Source of the DNA: Geotoga petraea
Lineage (GTDB): Bacteria; Thermotogota; Thermotogae; Petrotogales; Petrotogaceae
Assembly (NCBI RefSeq): GCF_900102615.1
Contig: NZ_FMYV01000008.1
Span: 1 to 64,000, forward strand
Length of the DNA stretch: 64,000 nt
Direction of reading: 5' to 3'
Position numbers and translations under genes: made by a program. The notes under the pieces are model-generated. The model was given only the letters and a program-made list of their open reading frames with translations. It ran no database searches and was not told the DNA's origin. Of this stretch, positions 2,313 through 54,215 are shown piece after piece (positions within the stretch are counted from its first letter, which is position 1; each line of letters opens with the position of its first letter).

Positions 2313-2620
2313 TCTTTCCTCCTATCATTTTTGAAAAAGTTTCTCTCTCCTGAAATATCCATAAAAAAAATACAAACGACAATATAATAAATAACAAATT
2401 AGCATAAAAGCTTTTTTGCACTCTTCGTCATCTGCGATGACTTATAAATTTTCTCACGACTCATCAAAAAAATGAAGTTCTTCTATGTGCATATACGTAT
2501 GTATAATGACGATTAAAATCAATTACAATAAAAAATCTTTAATTTTCATAGTTTTTCAAAAACTCTAAAAAATAGAATTAATCTATCACTTGATTAATTT
2601 ATAACCATCATAAAACCTAT

Positions 2621-2650
2621 AAAAAAAGATACCAACCTAAGTTGATATCT
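2621..2650 (-). terminator. Rho-independent terminator downstream of manC
   Basis: GATACCAAC (2628-2636) and GTTGATATC (2641-2649) pair with one mismatch around a 4-base loop. On the minus strand the hairpin is followed by seven T residues (2621-2627). Confidence 0.65.
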
Positions 2651-2672
2651 CCAATTAATATTTAAGGATTTT

Positions 2673-2990
2673 AATTCTCCTCTAAATGTGTTAGAGGAGC
2701 ACCTGTGAAACAGGGGAGGAGTTTAGGCCTTTTGTTTTTTAAAGGTTTTTACCAACATCCAACCTCGATCCTCCAACAGAAATCTTTGATTTCTACTACA
2801 GGGGAGTTTAGCGGTTAAATCCCCTCTAAAATGACTATTAGAGGGGTGTCAGTGAAACTGACGGGGTGTTTTAGATTTTAATTCTCCTCTAAATGTGTTA
2901 GAGGAGCACCTGTGAAACAGGGGAGGAGTTTAGGCTTTTGTCTTTGTTTTTTAAAGGTTTTTACCAACAACAAACAACCAGCAACCGGAA
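2673..2990 (-). repeat. Two-hairpin palindromic repeat cluster, reverse orientation
   Basis: Three modules are present. Two are CTCCTCTAA...TTAGAGGAG plus CCTG-tgaaa-CAGG units (about 2675-2726 and 2883-2935). One is a CCCCTCTAA...TTAGAGGGG plus GTCAG-tgaaa-CTGAC unit (2815-2872). A short AGAAATC-ttt-GATTTCT hairpin (2778-2794) lies between them. All read in the opposite direction to the copies at 29-54 kb. Confidence 0.8.
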
Positions 2991-2993
2991 AAT

Positions 2994-3992
2994 TTATTTA
3001 TAAATTTTCCTATAAACCTCCCTAATATCATTAACCATGTCCTCTTTTGCTACCAAAATTCCGTTCTCTGTTTCTATTATCACAACATCATCCACCCCAA
3101 CAACTCCAACATTCTTGTTTGATTTAACAAAAACATTCTTGCTGTCTACAAGATGAACATTTTCTTTACCGTCTGAACAGCCTTCCATCTCTCTAACAGA
3201 TACCCAGTTCCCAACATCAGACCATTCATAATCTGCCATAATAGTAAACACTCTTTCAGATTTTTCCATCAAAGCATAGTCTATGCTTATCTTTCTTAAG
3301 TCTAAATATACTTTCCTTATCTCTTCTACATCTTTTGGGTTTATATCTTTCAATGTATTATATATATCTTCATTATATCTTTTCATCTCTTCTAAAAATA
3401 TATCTTTCTTCCATAAAAACATCCCGCTATTCCAATAATAGTTTCCTTCTTTCAAATATTCCAAAGCTGTTTCATGATTTGGTTTTTCTCTGAAATTATC
3501 TACTTTCATAACTCCATTTCCAACTTCTTCCCCTGCTTCTATATATCCGTATCCTGTTTCTGGTCTTGTTGGTTTTATCCCCATAGTAACCAAACCATTG
3601 TTTTCTTCTGCTGCCTTTATTCCTTTTTCTACTACTTCCCAAAACTTCTCTTTATTTGGTATATAATGGTCTGCTGGTAAAATAAACACTACCTCGTCTT
3701 CTTCTGCTATCAAAGAACCAACAAAACAAGCTGGAGCTGTGTTCCTTGCAACTGGTTCGAGAATAACGTTACCAATGCCTAATTCTGGTAATTCTTTCAG
3801 TGTTTGTTCCTTGTGTTTTTCTGCAGTAACAACAAAAATATCTTTTGGTTCTAATCTATAATTCAACCTCTCAAATGTTTCTCTTATTAATGATTTTTCT
3901 GAAAATATCTCCAAAAACTGTTTTGGTTTTTCTGGTGTACTCAATGGCCAAAACCTTTCTCCAGATCCCCCGGCTAATATTATCGCTTTCAT
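2994..3992 (-). CDS. manC: Mannose-1-phosphate guanylyltransferase
   Basis: Nucleotidyltransferase that makes GDP-mannose from mannose-1-phosphate and GTP. The G-loop LAGGSGERFWPLS lies near the N-terminus and VDNFREKP gives the pyrophosphorylase motif. At about 332 residues it lacks the C-terminal isomerase domain of bifunctional ManC/AlgA enzymes, so it should catalyse only guanylyl transfer. The upstream ATG at 3998 is only 2 bases from the GGGAGG site, whereas ATG at 3992 has 8, so the protein should start MKAIILAGG. It lies at the 3' end of the polysaccharide locus behind the rmlB terminator and is probably a separate unit. Confidence 0.9.
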   Translation of the reverse strand: MKAIILAGGSGERFWPLSTPEKPKQFLEIFSEKSLIRETFERLNYRLEPKDIFVVTAEKHKEQTLKELPELGIGNVILEPVARNTAPACFVGSLIAEEDEVVFILPADHYIPNKEKFWEVVEKGIKAAEENNGLVTMGIKPTRPETGYGYIEAGEEVGNGVMKVDNFREKPNHETALEYLKEGNYYWNSGMFLWKKDIFLEEMKRYNEDIYNTLKDINPKDVEEIRKVYLDLRKISIDYALMEKSERVFTIMADYEWSDVGNWVSVREMEGCSDGKENVHLVDSKNVFVKSNKNVGVVGVDDVVIIETENGILVAKEDMVNDIREVYRKIYK

Positions 3993-4031
3993 ATTCATGA
4001 CCTCCCTGATTTATAGTTTGTCAACACTCTA

Positions 4032-29196: not shown

Positions 29197-29991
29197 TTCC
29201 TTGTCAAAATCACTTTGTGATTTTGGTTGTTGGTTGAGAGTGAGAATTTGTTTTACAAATTCTCAGTTGTTTGTTGTTGGTGAAACAAAGTGCCTAAACT
29301 CCCCTGTGCTTCGCACTTCCCCTCTAACACATTTAGAGGGGATTAGCTTCTAAAAACCCCGGGATAGAAATCAGAGATTTCTGTTGTTGGTTGTTGGAAA
29401 AAACTAAAAATCTATTAGCTGTTTTGCAAAAATAAATTTGTTTTTTTGGAATTTTATGTTTGTATTCTACATTTATTATTTTATCATAAAATATGAGTAT
29501 TTTTGTTTCTATGTGGGTAAGCATGTGTTATTGTATCATAATTTTTCGTTTTAATCACGGGATTTTAAAAAATGTTATGTTTTTGTTATTTTTTTATCAA
29601 GTGATTAATGAATTCGAGGAGCGAATTCGGTTGGAAGTTGGTTGGAATAAAACCTCTAAAACACCCCGTCAGTTTCACTGACACCCCTCTAATGGTCATT
29701 TTAGAGGGGATTAGTGCCTAAACTCCTCCCCTGTTTCACAGGGACTCCTCTTACACATTAAGAGGGGATTAGCTTCTAAAAACCCCGGGATAGAAATCAG
29801 AGATTTCTGTTGTTAGTTGTTTGTTGTTTGTTGTTTGAAAAAAAGTGCCTAAACTCCCTTGTGATAGAAATCAGAGATTTCTGTTGTTAGTTGTTTGTTG
29901 TTTGTTGTTTGAAAAAAAGTTTAATATCAAATATGTACTTAACCAAAAACTAACAACAAGAAACCAACAACAAAATAAATTACTTTGTAAT
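29197..29991 (+). repeat. Repeat island between the sugar transferase and wzz copy 1
   Basis: No gene is supported here. The stretch holds variable hairpins with GTTGTTGG tails (29206-29236, 29242-29280, 29366-29397). Three two-hairpin modules are at 29291-29345, 29653-29711 and 29716-29770. A 58-base unit is repeated exactly at 29789-29846 and 29863-29920. One copy of ATCAAGTGAT lies at 29596-29605. Bases 29400-29590 are plain AT-rich sequence and may hold the promoter of the polysaccharide operon. Confidence 0.85.
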
Positions 29992-31836
29992 TTATTTTAT
30001 GAATATGTATGTTGGGTTGGGGATGGATTTTTGGATTTGTTCTATTGTTTCTATGGTTGTGCTTTTTTGTTTTATTAGTATTATGTTGTTGTTTATTGTT
30101 GGGTTGTATAGTATGTATTCTGGGGAATCTATGTTTGTGAATTTTGTTATTGTGTGAGTTTTTTGTTTTGTTTCTTCGAATTGTTTTATTTTTTCTTCGT
30201 AGTTTTGTGGTTTTGTTGGGTCTGTGTATGTGTATTCTGGGGTTATTTTTTTTATTTGGTTGTATATTTGTTCTGCAAAGTTTGTTGGGATTTTTTGTGA
30301 TGTTTGGATTACTGCTATTTTTGTGTTTTGGGTTTGGTATAGTTTGTTTATTATTTTTTCTATTTCTTTTTCTGAGTTTAGTGTTATTTCTGGATTTTTG
30401 AATAGTGTTTCGAATTCTTTTTTGTCTTTTATTGTGTTGTCGGATGATTCTTTGACAAATACTCCCAATATTCCAAGGAATATTCCAAGTACTCCGCCTA
30501 TTGCGAGGATGAGTGTTTTGTTTGGGGCTATTGGGTTTTCTGGTTGGTATACTACTTGAACCATTGAGAATTTTGGTGTATATAGTTTTTGGCTCATTCT
30601 TTCTTGTTCAAGGGTGTTGTAGAACATGTTGTATTTGCTTTCTATTACTTTTTGGTCTTTCATCATTTGTAGGTATTGGTATACCACAGGTGATTTTTTG
30701 TTTATTTCAGTGTCTATTACAGAGAGCATTTGTTGGTAGACCTGTTTTGTGACGTCGAATAGTTCCAGCTGTGTTTGGGTTTGTATGTATTGGCTGAATT
30801 TTTCTCTGTCTGTTACAGAGAGATATGTCATATTGTTTTCGAGTAGTTTGTTTTGTTGTTGTTTTAGTTCGTTTTCTGTTACTGTTATTACGGATTCGAG
30901 TTCTCTTATCCTGGGTGAGTTTGGTTGGTTTAGTTTTAGTGTTTCGAGCTCTATTTGATAATTTATTAGTTTGTTTTTTAGATTGGATAGGTTGCTTTGT
31001 GATGCTGTGAGCATTAGTTCTTTCATTTCTTCGCTTGTTTCTGCAAGGTTTTTTTCTATACTTTGTAGCGTTATTTCGAGTTGTTGTTTTTCTTGATCCA
31101 TTTTTAAAAGTTTTAGGTATGTTTCTTCGTAGTAGTTTATGAGGTCTGTTTGGATTGCGTCGTCGCTTATTTTGTTTTCGATTTTGTAGTCGAATACTTG
31201 TTTGTTTATTTTGTTGAATTGTTGTTCCAGGTCTGTGAAGATAGATTCTATTTGGTTTATTGTTTTGTTGGATCTTCCGAGTGTGTATTCTTTTTCGTAG
31301 TCAAGGTAGTATTGGTATGTTAGTGATACTATCGAAGCAGCCTGTGTTGGGTTGCTGCTTTCATAGCTTATTTTTACGAAGTTTGTTCCTTCTACGTTTT
31401 GTATTGATATTTTTTCTCTTATTGATTTTATGAATCCTCTTTTTGTGTATTCTATTCCTCTTATTTCTGATAACCAGCTTTTGTTTTGGTTTGCTTTTTC
31501 TACCATGTTTAGTTGGTCTACTACCTGGCCAAGTACTCTGTCGGATTTCATTCTTTCTATTTCTGTTGTTAGAGAGTTTGTACTTCCACCGCCAGAAGGG
31601 ATGGATATCCCCGCCATTGAAGCAAGACCAGCGTATTGACTGAGCGATGATGTCGAAGAAGTTTGGCCTTCGAACTCGACAAGTTGTTCTGCTTTGTATG
31701 TTGGGGTTGTAAAGTAGAACAGGTATATGAGAGTTATTGCTACTGTTGCAACGAATATTAACGTGAATGTCCATTTTCTTCTTTTGAATATTCTTATTAT
31801 GTCTGAAAAAGTTAATTCCATCTCTTGGTTTTCCAT
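29992..31836 (-). CDS. Wzz/GumC-like chain-length protein with degenerate kinase-like tail, copy 1
   Basis: A 614-residue inner-membrane protein. The N-terminal cytosolic ELTFSDIIRIFKRRKW precedes TM1 (about 20-42). A long periplasmic helical region with coiled coils (about 170-390) follows, including KLNQPNSPRIRELE. TM2 is about 440-460 (ILAIGGVLGIFLGILG) after the PENPIAPNK loop. The last 130 residues resemble the start of a tyrosine autokinase domain (KIAVIQTSQK...), but Walker A GK(S/T) is absent, so no kinase activity is expected. It sets polysaccharide chain length with Wzy. The paralogue is at 34202-36040. GGAGG site before ATG. Confidence 0.88.
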   Translation of the reverse strand: MENQEMELTFSDIIRIFKRRKWTFTLIFVATVAITLIYLFYFTTPTYKAEQLVEFEGQTSSTSSLSQYAGLASMAGISIPSGGGSTNSLTTEIERMKSDRVLGQVVDQLNMVEKANQNKSWLSEIRGIEYTKRGFIKSIREKISIQNVEGTNFVKISYESSNPTQAASIVSLTYQYYLDYEKEYTLGRSNKTINQIESIFTDLEQQFNKINKQVFDYKIENKISDDAIQTDLINYYEETYLKLLKMDQEKQQLEITLQSIEKNLAETSEEMKELMLTASQSNLSNLKNKLINYQIELETLKLNQPNSPRIRELESVITVTENELKQQQNKLLENNMTYLSVTDREKFSQYIQTQTQLELFDVTKQVYQQMLSVIDTEINKKSPVVYQYLQMMKDQKVIESKYNMFYNTLEQERMSQKLYTPKFSMVQVVYQPENPIAPNKTLILAIGGVLGIFLGILGVFVKESSDNTIKDKKEFETLFKNPEITLNSEKEIEKIINKLYQTQNTKIAVIQTSQKIPTNFAEQIYNQIKKITPEYTYTDPTKPQNYEEKIKQFEETKQKTHTITKFTNIDSPEYILYNPTINNNIILIKQKSTTIETIEQIQKSIPNPTYIFIK

Positions 31837-32110
31837 GTTTTTCCTCCGTTATGTAGGGTTATTTGTATTTAGATATGTTTATTGGTTGTTAAATACCATT
31901 CTTATTTTAACATATATTTTTATGTATGCAATTTAAATTTTTGTTTTTAAGTATATTGTTATATGTTATTAATATATCAAGTGATTAACGAATTCGGGGT
32001 AGAAATTGTAAAACAATTTCTGTTGTTTGTTGTTAGTTGTTGGTTTTTTGTTGTTGGTTGTTAGTGATAGAATGCAAGGCACTCTGGTTGCTGGTTGTTA
32101 GAAGGTAGTC
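31837..32110 (+). repeat. Intergenic stretch with hairpins and the ATCAAGTGAT motif
   Basis: Upstream region of wzz copy 1. It carries ATCAAGTGAT at 31976-31985 followed by TTAACGAATTCG, and the hairpin AGAAATTGT-aaa-ACAATTTCT (about 32006-32026) with a GTTGTTTGTTG tail. The rest is AT-rich and should contain the wzz promoter. Confidence 0.6.
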
Positions 32111-33659: not shown

Positions 33660-34175
33660 TATATTTTTTCAAAACCATGGAGGTTTTTGCTCATATGCGG
33701 CGAAAGAATGTGAATGCTAGAATTGCTTTGCAATTCCAGTTGTTGGTTGAGAGTGAGAATTTGTAAAACAAATTCTCGGTTATTTGTTGTTGGTTGATAG
33801 TTGTTAGTTGTTTGAAATAAAACCTCTAAAACACCCCGTCAGTTTCACTGACACCCCTCTAATGGTCATTTTAGAGGGGATTAGTGCTTAAACACCTCGC
33901 GATAGAAATCAGAGATTTCTGTTGTTGGTTGTTTGTTGTTTGTTGTTTGTTGGAAAATCAAAGGCAAAATCTCTAAAACACCCCGTCAGTTTCACTGACA
34001 CCCCTCTAATGGTCATTTTAGAGGGGATTAGTGCTTAAACACCTCGTGATAGAAATCAGAGATTTCTGTTGTTAGTTGTTGGTTGGAAAATCAAAGGCAA
34101 AAGGCCTAAACTCCCTTGTGATAGAAATCAGAGATTCCTGTTGTTGGTTTTTTGTTGCTGGTTGTTAGAAGGGAT
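33660..34175 (+). repeat. Repeat island between wzz copy 2 and the AAA ATPase
   Basis: No gene. Hairpins GAATTGC-ttt-GCAATTC (33720-33736) and GAGAATTTGT-aaa-ACAAATTCTC (about 33755-33777) have GTTGTTGG or GGTTATTTG tails. Two almost identical two-hairpin modules (33831-33880 and 33978-34026) are each followed by GATAGAAATC hairpins, so a unit of roughly 147 bases is duplicated. Confidence 0.85.
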
Positions 34176-46996: not shown

Positions 46997-47374
46997 GTAA
47001 TAAGCACCCGCCTTGGTTAGATTATATCAAATTTTTTGAAAAATTTATAAGATAGTATTATAGCATAAAAAATTGCTATTGCAATTTTTTGTTGCTGGGG
47101 GTTAGTGAGAATTTGTTTTACAAATTCTCAGTTGTTGGTGTGGGAATTATTTCATAATTCCTGTTGTTGGTTGTTAGTGAAACAAAGTGCCTAAACTCCC
47201 CTGTGCTTCGCACTTCCCCTCTAACACATTTAGAGGGGATTAGTGCTTAAACACCCCTGTGATAGAAATCATAAATGATTTTTGTTGGAGAATCGAGGTT
47301 GGAGGGGAAAGATGCATAGTGTTTTTTCATATGCTATAATATTTATAATAATTAAATTTAGGGGGGTTTTTAAT
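46997..47374 (+). repeat. Intergenic stretch with repeat island and divergent promoters
   Basis: Contains the leftward GGDEF promoter (47021-47029). A hairpin AAAAAATTGC-tatt-GCAATTTTTT lies at about 47067-47090. GAGAATTTGT-ttt-ACAAATTCTC and GGAATTAT-ttc-ATAATTCC both have GTTGTTGG tails, and one two-hairpin module is at 47186-47245. For the rightward receptor gene there is a TATAAT near 47334-47339 and a GGGGGG ribosome site at 47361-47366. Confidence 0.75.
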
Positions 47375-49288: not shown

Positions 49289-49690
49289 AAAATTGTCATA
49301 AAGGAATCGCTTTGCGATTCCTGTTGATGGGGGTTAGTGAGAATTTGTTTTACAAATTCTCAGTTGTTGGTGTGGGAATTATTTCATAATTCCTGTTGGT
49401 TGTTAGTGAAACAAAGTGCCTAAACTCCCCTGTGCTTCGCATTTCCCCTCTAACACATTTAGAGGGGATTAGTGCCTAAACTCCCATGTGATAGAAATCA
49501 AAGATTTCTGTTGGAAGTTGGCGTGGGAATTATTTCACAATTTCTGTTGTTAGTTGCTGATTGTTGGTTGATAGTAAAACCTCTAAAACACCCCGTCAGT
49601 TTCACTGACACCCCTCTAATGGTCATTTTAGAGGGGATTTATAACCCATGCTCAGAGTGTGAAAAAAAATCGAGATGATAAACCTTAAAC
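49289..49690 (+). repeat. Repeat island after the chemoreceptor gene
   Basis: No gene. Hairpins GGAATCGC-ttt-GCGATTCC (49303-49321), GAGAATTTGT-ttt-ACAAATTCTC and GGAATTAT-ttc-ATAATTCC are followed by a GTGC-ttc-GCA two-hairpin module (49412-49470) and a GTCAG-type module (49580-49637). The order of hairpins repeats that at 47100-47245. Confidence 0.85.
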
Positions 49691-51170: not shown

Positions 51171-51925
51171 TTATTTTTTATTTTTTAGAGTAATCCCTTT
51201 ATTAAATATACTTTTAAATACTTATTGTATTATTTTATTATATCACATTTCTTTTTAAATTTAACTTTCTATATCCCTTTAAAATAAAGGTTTTTGTTTT
51301 ATGTTTATATTTTAGAAATCTTATGGAAATCATAAATGATTTTGGATGGAGGATGAGTAGAAATTGTAAAACAATTTCTGTTGTTGGTTGTTGGTTGTTG
51401 GGGGGGAATTATTTCATAATTCCTGTTGTTTGTTGTTGGTTGTTGGTTGTTAGTGAAACAAAGTGCCTAAACTCCCCTGTGCTTCGCATTTCCCCTCTAA
51501 CACATTTAGAGGGGAGTTAAAACCTAAAACACCACTGTGATGGAAATCAAAGATTTCTGTTGGAAGTTGGCGTGGGAATTATTTCATAATTCCTGTTGTT
51601 AGTTGTTGGTTGTTGGTTGGAAGAGAAAAAGCAAAATCTCTAAAACACCCCGTCAGTTTCACTGACACCCCTCTAATGGTCATTTTAGAGGGGATTAGTG
51701 CTTAAACTCCCCGTGATAGAAATCATGAAATGATTTCTGTTGTTTGTTGATAGTTGTTAGTTGTTTGTAAAACCAAAGGCAAAATCTCTAAAACACCCCG
51801 TCGGTTTCACTGACACCCCTCTAATGGTCATTTTAGAGGGGATTAGTGCTTAAACTCCCCGTGATAGAAATCATGAAATGATTTCTGTTGTTTGTTGATA
51901 GTTGTTGGTTTTTGGTAAAAAATAC

Positions 51926-52809: not shown

Positions 52810-53751
52810 TTAATTCTTGTTTTGATTCATTTCTTCTTCAATTTTTTTGATTTGTTCAATTGAAATTCCCATGGCTTTTGAAATTACTTTTTTATCAACA
52901 TTTTCTCTTAAAAAATTCCTAGTGGCTTCTATCTTTTCTTTTTGAATTCCCTGTTGTATTCCCTGTTGTATTCCCTGCCTTATAGCTTCTTCTTTTTCTT
53001 TAATATATTTCTTTGCAAAACTTTCATACATTTCTTGCACCTCCTCATAGTGCTTTATCTCTTCTTCTATATCCGTGTCTGTTTTTTCTGATAATATTTT
53101 TATAAATCCATAAAAATGACTTCTAAATTTTTCTTTCTCTGTTTCTTCAAATTGTTCAAATATCTCTCTTGATTTTTCTAATACTTCTAATATATCTTTG
53201 TTTTCTATCTTTTTGTCTAAATATAGTAATGTTCCCATTGCATTTTTTAATCCTAATAGTTTTTCTTCTTCTATTTCGTTTAATTCTATTTTATGGTATT
53301 TGAAGTTTGGGATTAGCTCTTTAAAATTTTCTGATTCTTTTATTTTTTGTTTTAGTTCTATTGGTGGTGTCCACCTCTTTTCTCCATCATAGAACAGTAT
53401 CGGTATTATTGGAGGTAACTTGAAGTTTTTCTTTTTTGATTCCTTTTTATTGTTTTCTATATAATGATCCCATATTTTTACCATATAGTTCAAAAATCTA
53501 TATACCATTAATTGATCAATACTACTCTGATGCTCTAGCAATATGTATAAATATATTTCTTTTCCATCTTTTTTTATTTTGTATAGTACATCGCTTCTTT
53601 TTTCTGTATAATCTTTTGATATAAAATCTGTTTTTTCTTGAATTAAATCTTTTTCTTTCAGTCCTTCTATTGGGAAAAATGCTTTCATAAATTCTAAAAA
53701 TATGTGCTTATCATTTAATAGCTCTTTGAATTTTTTATCTTTTTCCCCCAT
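52810..53751 (-). CDS. Rpn family PD-(D/E)XK nuclease / putative transposase, copy 2
   Basis: A 313-residue Rpn protein. RSDVLYKIKKDGKEIYLYIL leads into LEHQSS, the D and ExQ residues of this family, and LMVYRFLNYMVKIWDHY follows as usual. A triple GIQQGIQQGIQ repeat (about residues 260-270) comes from a short in-frame tandem repeat, common in Rpn proteins. The last 20 residues (SIEQIKKIEEEMNQNKN) match copy 1, as do the promoter and terminator, but the cores differ strongly. GGAGG before ATG. Confidence 0.87.
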   Translation of the reverse strand: MGEKDKKFKELLNDKHIFLEFMKAFFPIEGLKEKDLIQEKTDFISKDYTEKRSDVLYKIKKDGKEIYLYILLEHQSSIDQLMVYRFLNYMVKIWDHYIENNKKESKKKNFKLPPIIPILFYDGEKRWTPPIELKQKIKESENFKELIPNFKYHKIELNEIEEEKLLGLKNAMGTLLYLDKKIENKDILEVLEKSREIFEQFEETEKEKFRSHFYGFIKILSEKTDTDIEEEIKHYEEVQEMYESFAKKYIKEKEEAIRQGIQQGIQQGIQKEKIEATRNFLRENVDKKVISKAMGISIEQIKKIEEEMNQNKN

Positions 53752-53844: not shown

Positions 53845-54215
53845 CTTTTTAGCTGGTCGGAGGTGAAACAAAGTGCCTAAACTCCCCTGTGATAGAAATC
53901 ATGAAATGATTTCTGTTGTTGGAATAGGAATTGCTTTGCAATTCCAGTTGTTGGTTGTTGAGATTTTTCTTTCAGAAAAATCGTTGTTGGTATGGGAATT
54001 ATTTCATAATTCCTGTTGTTGTTTGTTGATAGTTGTTAATTGTTTGTAAAACCAAAGGCAAAATCTCTAAAACACCCCTGTGATAGAAATCATAAATGAT
54101 TTTGGATGGAGAATCGAGGTTGGACGTTGGAAGAGAAAAGGCAAAATCTCTAAAACACCCTGCCAGTTTCACTGACACCCCTCTAATGGTCATTTTAGAG
54201 GGGATTTCTTTTCTA
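53845..54215 (+). repeat. Repeat island with four different hairpins in a row
   Basis: Within 53894-54013 four hairpins with unrelated stems follow one another: AGAAATCAT-gaa, GGAATTGC-ttt, GATTTTTCT-ttc and GGAATTAT-ttc, each closed by its exact complement. Each is followed by GTTGTTG. A GCCAG-type two-hairpin module (54154-54203) ends just before the promoter of the GH31 gene. No gene. Confidence 0.88.

Follow-up and report, generated by a model that had tools for sequence, protein, structure and literature searches.

What kind of sequence changes its stem repeatedly while both the pairing and the tail beside it are kept? The question is raised by four hairpins standing in a row at 53894-54013 of the window, the 64,000-nucleotide stretch of Geotoga petraea DNA analysed here (contig NZ_FMYV01000008.1, positions 1 to 64,000). 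The positions and tails given for them in a preliminary description are borne out, as all four are perfect, with stems of 9, 8, 9 and 8 bp and 3-nt loops, and are followed by GTTGTTGG, AGTTGTTGG, GTTGTTGG and TGTTGTTG, respectively. The run is probably a tandem cluster of end-modules belonging to a family of non-autonomous, REP/REPIN-like palindromic elements.

The four-hairpin run

All features of the run lie on the + strand. Hairpin 1 (53894-53914), AGAAATCAT-gaa-ATGATTTCT, is of the AGAAAT class, with a T before it and GTTGTTGG after it. Hairpin 2 (53927-53945), GGAATTGC-ttt-GCAATTCC with tail AGTTGTTGG, has a related copy at 33718-33738, and hairpin 3 (53962-53982), GATTTTTCT-ttc-AGAAAAATC, has about ten copies in the genome and elsewhere lies within GTTGATAGTTGTTA..GTTGTTGG; an array otherwise like that of hairpin 3, but without the hairpin itself, comes after the hairpin at 51718-51738. 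Hairpin 4 (53995-54013), GGAATTAT-ttc-ATAATTCC, occurs in five identical copies in the window and is followed at 54014-54050 by a degenerate heptamer array (GTTGTTD). Further downstream, at 54085-54104, stands a fifth, decayed hairpin, AGAAATCATAAATGATTTTGG, of the AGAAATC class, whose tail, as read from the sequence, has degenerated to GGATGGAG. The stems do not differ completely, as had been proposed, since hairpins 2 and 4 have GGAATT/AATTCC in common and an RRAAT pattern is found in hairpins 1, 2 and 4. When the 120-nt run is folded as single-stranded DNA, exactly the four hairpins form and nothing else (z = -8.2). Over the whole window, 30 perfect hairpins with a stem of at least 8 bp and a loop of 3 were counted, against a mean of 3.25 and a maximum of 5 in mononucleotide shuffles.

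The tail and the heptamer arrays

The tail is no signal standing by itself. It opens a degenerate array of 7-bp period, GTTGTTD, which is in places dozens of units long, and in complete copies it marks the inward-facing end of a two-ended element. The stretches of the genome sampled for this work, about 395 kb in all, were picked around repeat matches, so their densities do not stand for the genome as a whole. In sampled intergenic DNA, 55 of 115 first-unit GTTGTT sites directly adjoin a hairpin with a stem of 7 bp or longer, compared with 469 of 16,800 random intergenic positions (2.8%); for control hexamers not overlapping the GTTGTT motif, 0-6% abut hairpins. The association of tail and hairpin is not due to chance. 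A scan of 341 kb of the same genome found GTTG directly after 69 of 612 hairpins. In 26 of 36 clusters the strand with the tag is the one richer in G (p = 0.011), a bias in keeping with replication-linked behaviour, though it may be a matter of composition.

Several other arrays are found on the + strand of the window. At 29205-29400 the hairpins CAAAATCAC, TGAGAATTTGT and AGAAATC each carry a GTTGTT tail, and a AGAAATTGT-aaa hairpin stands at 32001-32070. The array at 33718-34160 holds TAGAATTGC, GAGAATTTGT and AGAAATC (three) together with C-rich modules, and that at 51359-51900 holds AGAAATTGT-aaa, GGAATTAT (two) and AGAAATCAT-gaa (two), likewise with C-rich modules. Two arrays are composite: the first, at 47067-47240, begins with AAAAAATTGC-tatt and continues with TGAGAATTTGT, GGAATTAT and a C-rich module; the second, at 49302-49560, begins with AGGAATCGC-ttt.

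Tailed hairpins were collected across the genome and its relatives, as the preliminary description had suggested. A covariance model of hairpin plus tag was matched about 85 times in the 2.17 Mb genome (E<0.1; best 1.5e-8), and in 40 relatives, none of the same genus, it gave 0-6 weak matches per relative at E<=1, none above chance. BLAST of the locus against 40 relatives (none of the same genus), plasmids and phages gave no match, and exact-pattern scans of genome and viral collections returned single chance-like matches only; just one of those in genomes had a hairpin, a long stem unrelated to the present ones. Relatives from another family of the order carry similar GTTGTTGG heptamers without hairpins. 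Judged by these sequence searches, the repeat family is confined to its own genome among the genomes searched.

Complete elements with two ends

Where simple copies can be read from end to end, the complete element is 83-271 bp long and has a tagged hairpin at either end, with the tags pointing inward. Complete copies were found in sampled stretches of the genome (L165 1044-1186, L161 1442-1577 and L159 983-1065) and in the window at 29866-29998 (+), where AGAAATC-aga-GATTTCT is followed by a GTTGTTAGTTG.. array, a core, ..CCAACAAC and the hairpin AAAATAAATTAC on the - strand; the tail of this right hairpin faces inward, and the element has a T before it and an A after it. Neighbouring tagged hairpins at most 500 bp apart are convergent in 9 cases, divergent in none and tandem in 40, the convergent and divergent counts being a small sample. 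The border is likewise regular, with T preceding 39 of 48 array-terminal hairpins (p = 9e-11) and A following the right hairpin in 8 of 9 convergent copies. No convergent copy has the same stem at both ends: usually an AGAAAT/AGGAAT-type stem stands at one end, and AAAATAAATT, AAAATGC or AAAAATTGT at the other. The four-hairpin run is a tandem series of such tagged element ends without a partner end.

A specific cloverleaf formed by pairing between the two tails was considered and rejected. Complementarity between the two tails of one element (mean -15.8 kcal/mol) does not exceed that with tails from other elements (-20.2 kcal/mol), and element interiors mostly fold little better than shuffles; therefore, the tail-swap control and the interior folds do not support such a structure.

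Stem families and paired changes

The stems, previously called unrelated, can be sorted into about six families, and a number of them are invariant blocks present in many copies. Most families share an outer RRAAT/ATTYY, with a tip that varies while pairing is kept. Tips of the AGAAAT family are C, CA, CAT, TGT, TGTT, TAT and AGC, those of the AAAAAT family TGT, CAC and GC, and those of the AAAATAAATT family GC, AC and T; further families are GAGAATTTGT/CGAAAATTTG and AGGAATCGC/GGAATTAT/GGAATTGC, with GATTTTTCT separate from the rest. Among the blocks copied repeatedly with their flanks are GGAATTAT-ttc, with five copies in the window, and GATTTTTCT-ttc, with about ten genome-wide, and some copies of the latter adjoin 5S rRNA and were multiplied along with the rRNA operons. 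There is also mosaic copying, in which one flank carries different hairpins: the composite arrays 47067-47240 and 49302-49468 are near-identical past the first hairpin, which is AAAAAATTGC-tatt in the former and AGGAATCGC-ttt in the latter.

Hairpins picked as hairpins always pair, and a covariation count on such a set is circular; copies were therefore picked by the sequence that follows the hairpin, and for these, too, the earlier observation holds that sequence changes while pairing is kept. Of the sites picked by flank, 70 in number, a clear hairpin (shuffle p<=0.01) is present at 36, comprising 28 that are perfect, six that deviate only by G.U and two that are mismatched. In twelve gap-free flank-picked copies, which are related and hence do not represent twelve independent events, 99.1% of cells are paired and 4 of 9 pairs have changed on both sides. 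The covariation score of these copies is 0.350 against 0.179 in shuffles, and 14 of their cells are changed on both sides against 4.8 in shuffles. When the partner is slid by one base, pairing falls to 40-48%, and no slid version comes close. A single flanking frame carries AGAAAT and ATTTCT around TGT-ttc-ACA, TGT-ttt-ACA, TAT-tac-ATA, TAT-tgc-ATA and CAT-aaa-ATG. Uncompensated changes are also present in some copies.

Host-gene junctions and adjoining sequences

Three junctions with host genes bear on where the stem arms come from. At the 3' end of a manC-like gene (2994-3998), a hairpin on the - strand (2987-3010) has a coding 5' arm, GGAAAATTTA, and a 3' arm that abuts a GGTTGCTGG array. 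This 5' arm resembles the gene end of a relative (GGAAAATTTTAAATAAA, GGAAAATTT); as it is coding sequence like that of the relative, the 3' arm may have been copied there, or an arm already present may have been captured. The hairpin at the Wzz-like gene (29992) has a stem of a repeated element class rather than a host-derived arm. At the end of hisF, relatives read GINVRL* and this genome reads GIEIRNS*: the hairpin begins at the conserved Arg codon and replaces the native stop, and only its first codon is clearly host. Host-derived 5' arms were accordingly rejected as a general rule, being plausible at manC only. On another contig, fragments of a manC copy lie between repeat arrays (L038 2385-2492 and 3908-4000), and the joint of gene fragment and array there is a TGG microhomology.

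A second, C-rich palindromic family is mixed with the first. Next to the run, at 54143-54206 (+), it reads CTAAAACACCC-hairpin-ACCCCTCTAA..TTAGAGGGG; as CTAAAACACCCC-hairpin-ACCCCTCTAA..TTAGAGGGG it is found in the window at 54143-54206, 51630-51700, 33819-33882 and 2600-3110, among others, and its first hairpin varies within a constant frame (GTCAG/CTGAC, TGTG/CAC, CCTGT/ACAGG and CTGC/GCAG). Another repeat, GTCATTCTGAGCGACG..GAAGAATCT, adjoins several GTTG hairpins (L036, L042, L156 and L161) and may be a CGTC-type REP. The dispersed repeat AATTTCGAAATATAAAAACTCAAAGTAGGTC forms the constant left flank of several elements (L034, L159, L160, L161, L162, L163 and L042), with copies lacking a hairpin in L046 and L162.

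The run itself is adjoined by an Rpn/YhgA-like gene (Pfam PF04754, Transposase_31) at 52810-53751 (-). Near-copies of PF04754 genes are found in the window at 1038-2006 and 52810-53751, at L037 4251-4925 and at L043 3082-3747, two of them truncated, and all four adjoin arrays, including the truncated near-copy in L037. A search with PF12784 was uninformative, as that profile matched nowhere; the genes are PF04754. HipA, HEPN, Fic and AbiEii-like genes are also near arrays. In the window, GC skew is about -0.2 before ~28 kb and about +0.1 after it, the change coinciding with the border of the polysaccharide cluster and the repeat-rich region. Contig C11 (L038 and L039) has a very strong third-position GC skew (about 0.3-0.4, where most of the other stretches sampled have 0.1-0.2), and every strong hairpin match on it is on the G-rich strand.

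Possible origins of the hairpins

How could hairpin ends multiply while their stems change? For the non-autonomous elements favoured here, the likely course is that a putative trans-acting enzyme recognises the hairpin in single-stranded form, by shape and tag, in which case the stem sequence would be free to change as long as pairing holds. Template switching between the arms would restore perfect pairing and flip loops, of which four stems give instances, and recurrent insertion, slippage and recombination at GTTG arrays would stack ends in tandem, as at 53894-54013. Against this reading, no match to the Y1/RAYT transposase (PF01797) was found in the 99.75% complete genome with a profile that matched 5 of 14 control genomes. 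The multi-copy genes in the ~395-kb sample include no transposase except the Rpn-type PF04754 proteins. The family, tag, two ends, borders and paired variation are observed, while mobility, single-strand recognition and template switching are inferred. The full proposal, in which single-strand-mobilised mini-elements have interchangeable hairpin ends read by shape and GTTG tag by a non-RAYT/IS200 enzyme while template switching makes new stems, is put forward tentatively and is rather improbable as a whole. If the favoured reading of REP/REPIN-like elements is right, one genome would hold a repertoire of hairpin ends with different stems and a common tag, orientation and border. In such a natural set one could ask if the mobilising enzyme recognises the shape of a hairpin rather than its sequence, and template-switch mutation could be told apart from selection that maintains pairing. 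REPINs are thought to be driven by the RAYT transposase; this would be a similar system lacking it, making the mobilising enzyme worth finding.

Alternatively, the origin may be purely mutational, with arrays growing by slippage and fold-back template switching at their ends making or repairing palindromes, and with neither a mobile element nor selection for structure; this is a possibility of some standing, though not the one we favour. Template switching leaves as its footprints paired multi-base changes and loop inversion (PMC8794818), and both are seen here. Reverse-complemented loops on identical stems were found for four stems (AAAAATTGT with ttc/gaa, GAGAATTTGT and AAAATCAC with ttt/aaa, and AGAAATTGT with aaa/ttt), in agreement with the palindrome-making copying mechanism that the preliminary description had offered as its second idea. 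Yet the AAA/TTT flips are the weaker evidence because a TAA intermediate exists, through which they could have arisen stepwise. The manC hairpin, with a host coding 5' arm that matches the relative's gene end GGAAAATTT and its complement beside the array, and the TGG joint in L038 also fit a mutational origin. However, identical hairpins recur at many loci with differing flanks, slippage would not be expected to turn both ends inward or to give T/A borders, and the other-family relatives have the GTTGTTGG heptamers but not the hairpins.

Transcribed hairpins selected as RNA structures, e.g., as 3'-end stabilisers or regulators, are an unlikely explanation. The hairpins are good RNA folds, and the base of the stem has a T.G wobble that would form on the GTTG strand only. 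Yet Rfam 15 gave 0 matches above the gathering score in the window, the arrays sit on either strand between divergent, convergent and co-directional genes alike, the tagged-strand RNA fold of the longest run pairs hairpin 1 with hairpin 4 instead, and the family is confined to one genome among those searched.

Less likely still is a classical double-strand DNA MITE of the IS630/Tc1-like family with TA target sites. In 8 of 9 convergent copies a T stands ahead of the left hairpin and an A behind the right one; with A and T as the usual first and last stem bases, this gives TA at both borders, which may be a target-site duplication, and the hisF junction is at a TA. However, the two ends differ in sequence, and hence a transposase would find no terminal inverted repeat common to both to bind, and no matching transposase is among the multi-copy genes of the sampled 395 kb. 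Finally, ordinary terminators or chance inverted repeats, although the genome is ~71% A+T and real terminators are nearby, can practically be dismissed given 30 hairpins where about 3 are expected, the absence of a U-run and the constancy of the tag.

Comparison with known systems

Heptanucleotide short tandem repeats (STRR-like) of bacteria have a 7-bp period and are degenerate and intergenic. The GTTG arrays resemble them in all three respects, but start at a perfect hairpin. An integron attC site (RYYYAAC ... GTTRRRY) was rejected, as neither GTTGTTD nor GTTGGAA fits GTTRRRY and the order here is GTT..AAC.

Two further likenesses concern design or mechanism. The double-hairpin elements of fungal mitochondria are cited as short palindromes considered mobile because they are optional between relatives (cited in PMC7218506); they are organellar and of other sequence, and the likeness is one of short palindromic design and not meant as homology. 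Mutations by template switching in RNA genes (PMC8794818) are similar in their paired multi-base changes and loop inversions, but represent a mutation mechanism and not an element family.

The closest counterparts are the tagged REPs and the REPINs, and the statement that no described repeat has such a design was too strong. The GTAG- and CGTC-tagged REP super-families are 20-40 bp palindromes with stems of mostly 6-9 bp and, in many families, 2-4-nt loops; their hairpins vary in the stem, while an unpaired tag at one end stays constant (Di Nocera 2013, PMC3733652). Shared with the hairpins described here are the short hairpin, the unpaired constant tag at one end, complementary stem changes in subfamilies, and the intergenic and clustered location. 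The tag here, however, is GTTG (CAAC on the other strand) and belongs to a heptamer array, a single genome has many stem families with this one tag, and the RAYT gene is absent. In REPINs, the unit consists of two inverted tagged hairpins and a spacer (Bertels and Rainey 2011, PMC3116915), and the present elements are like them in the inverted tagged hairpin pair, tandem clusters, decayed singlets, compensatory changes and a size of about 100 bp. REPIN ends are near-identical inverted copies that form one long hairpin, whereas the stems here are unequal, the tails show no specific pairing and the genome has no RAYT transposase. Variable stems with a constant tag are thus already known from tagged REPs (PMC3733652), and two inverted tagged hairpins from REPINs (PMC3116915); the present family is set apart by its tag, the unequal ends, the heptamer arrays and the lack of RAYT. 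On balance, the GTTG-tagged hairpins appear to belong to non-autonomous palindromic elements of a new, REP/REPIN-like family.
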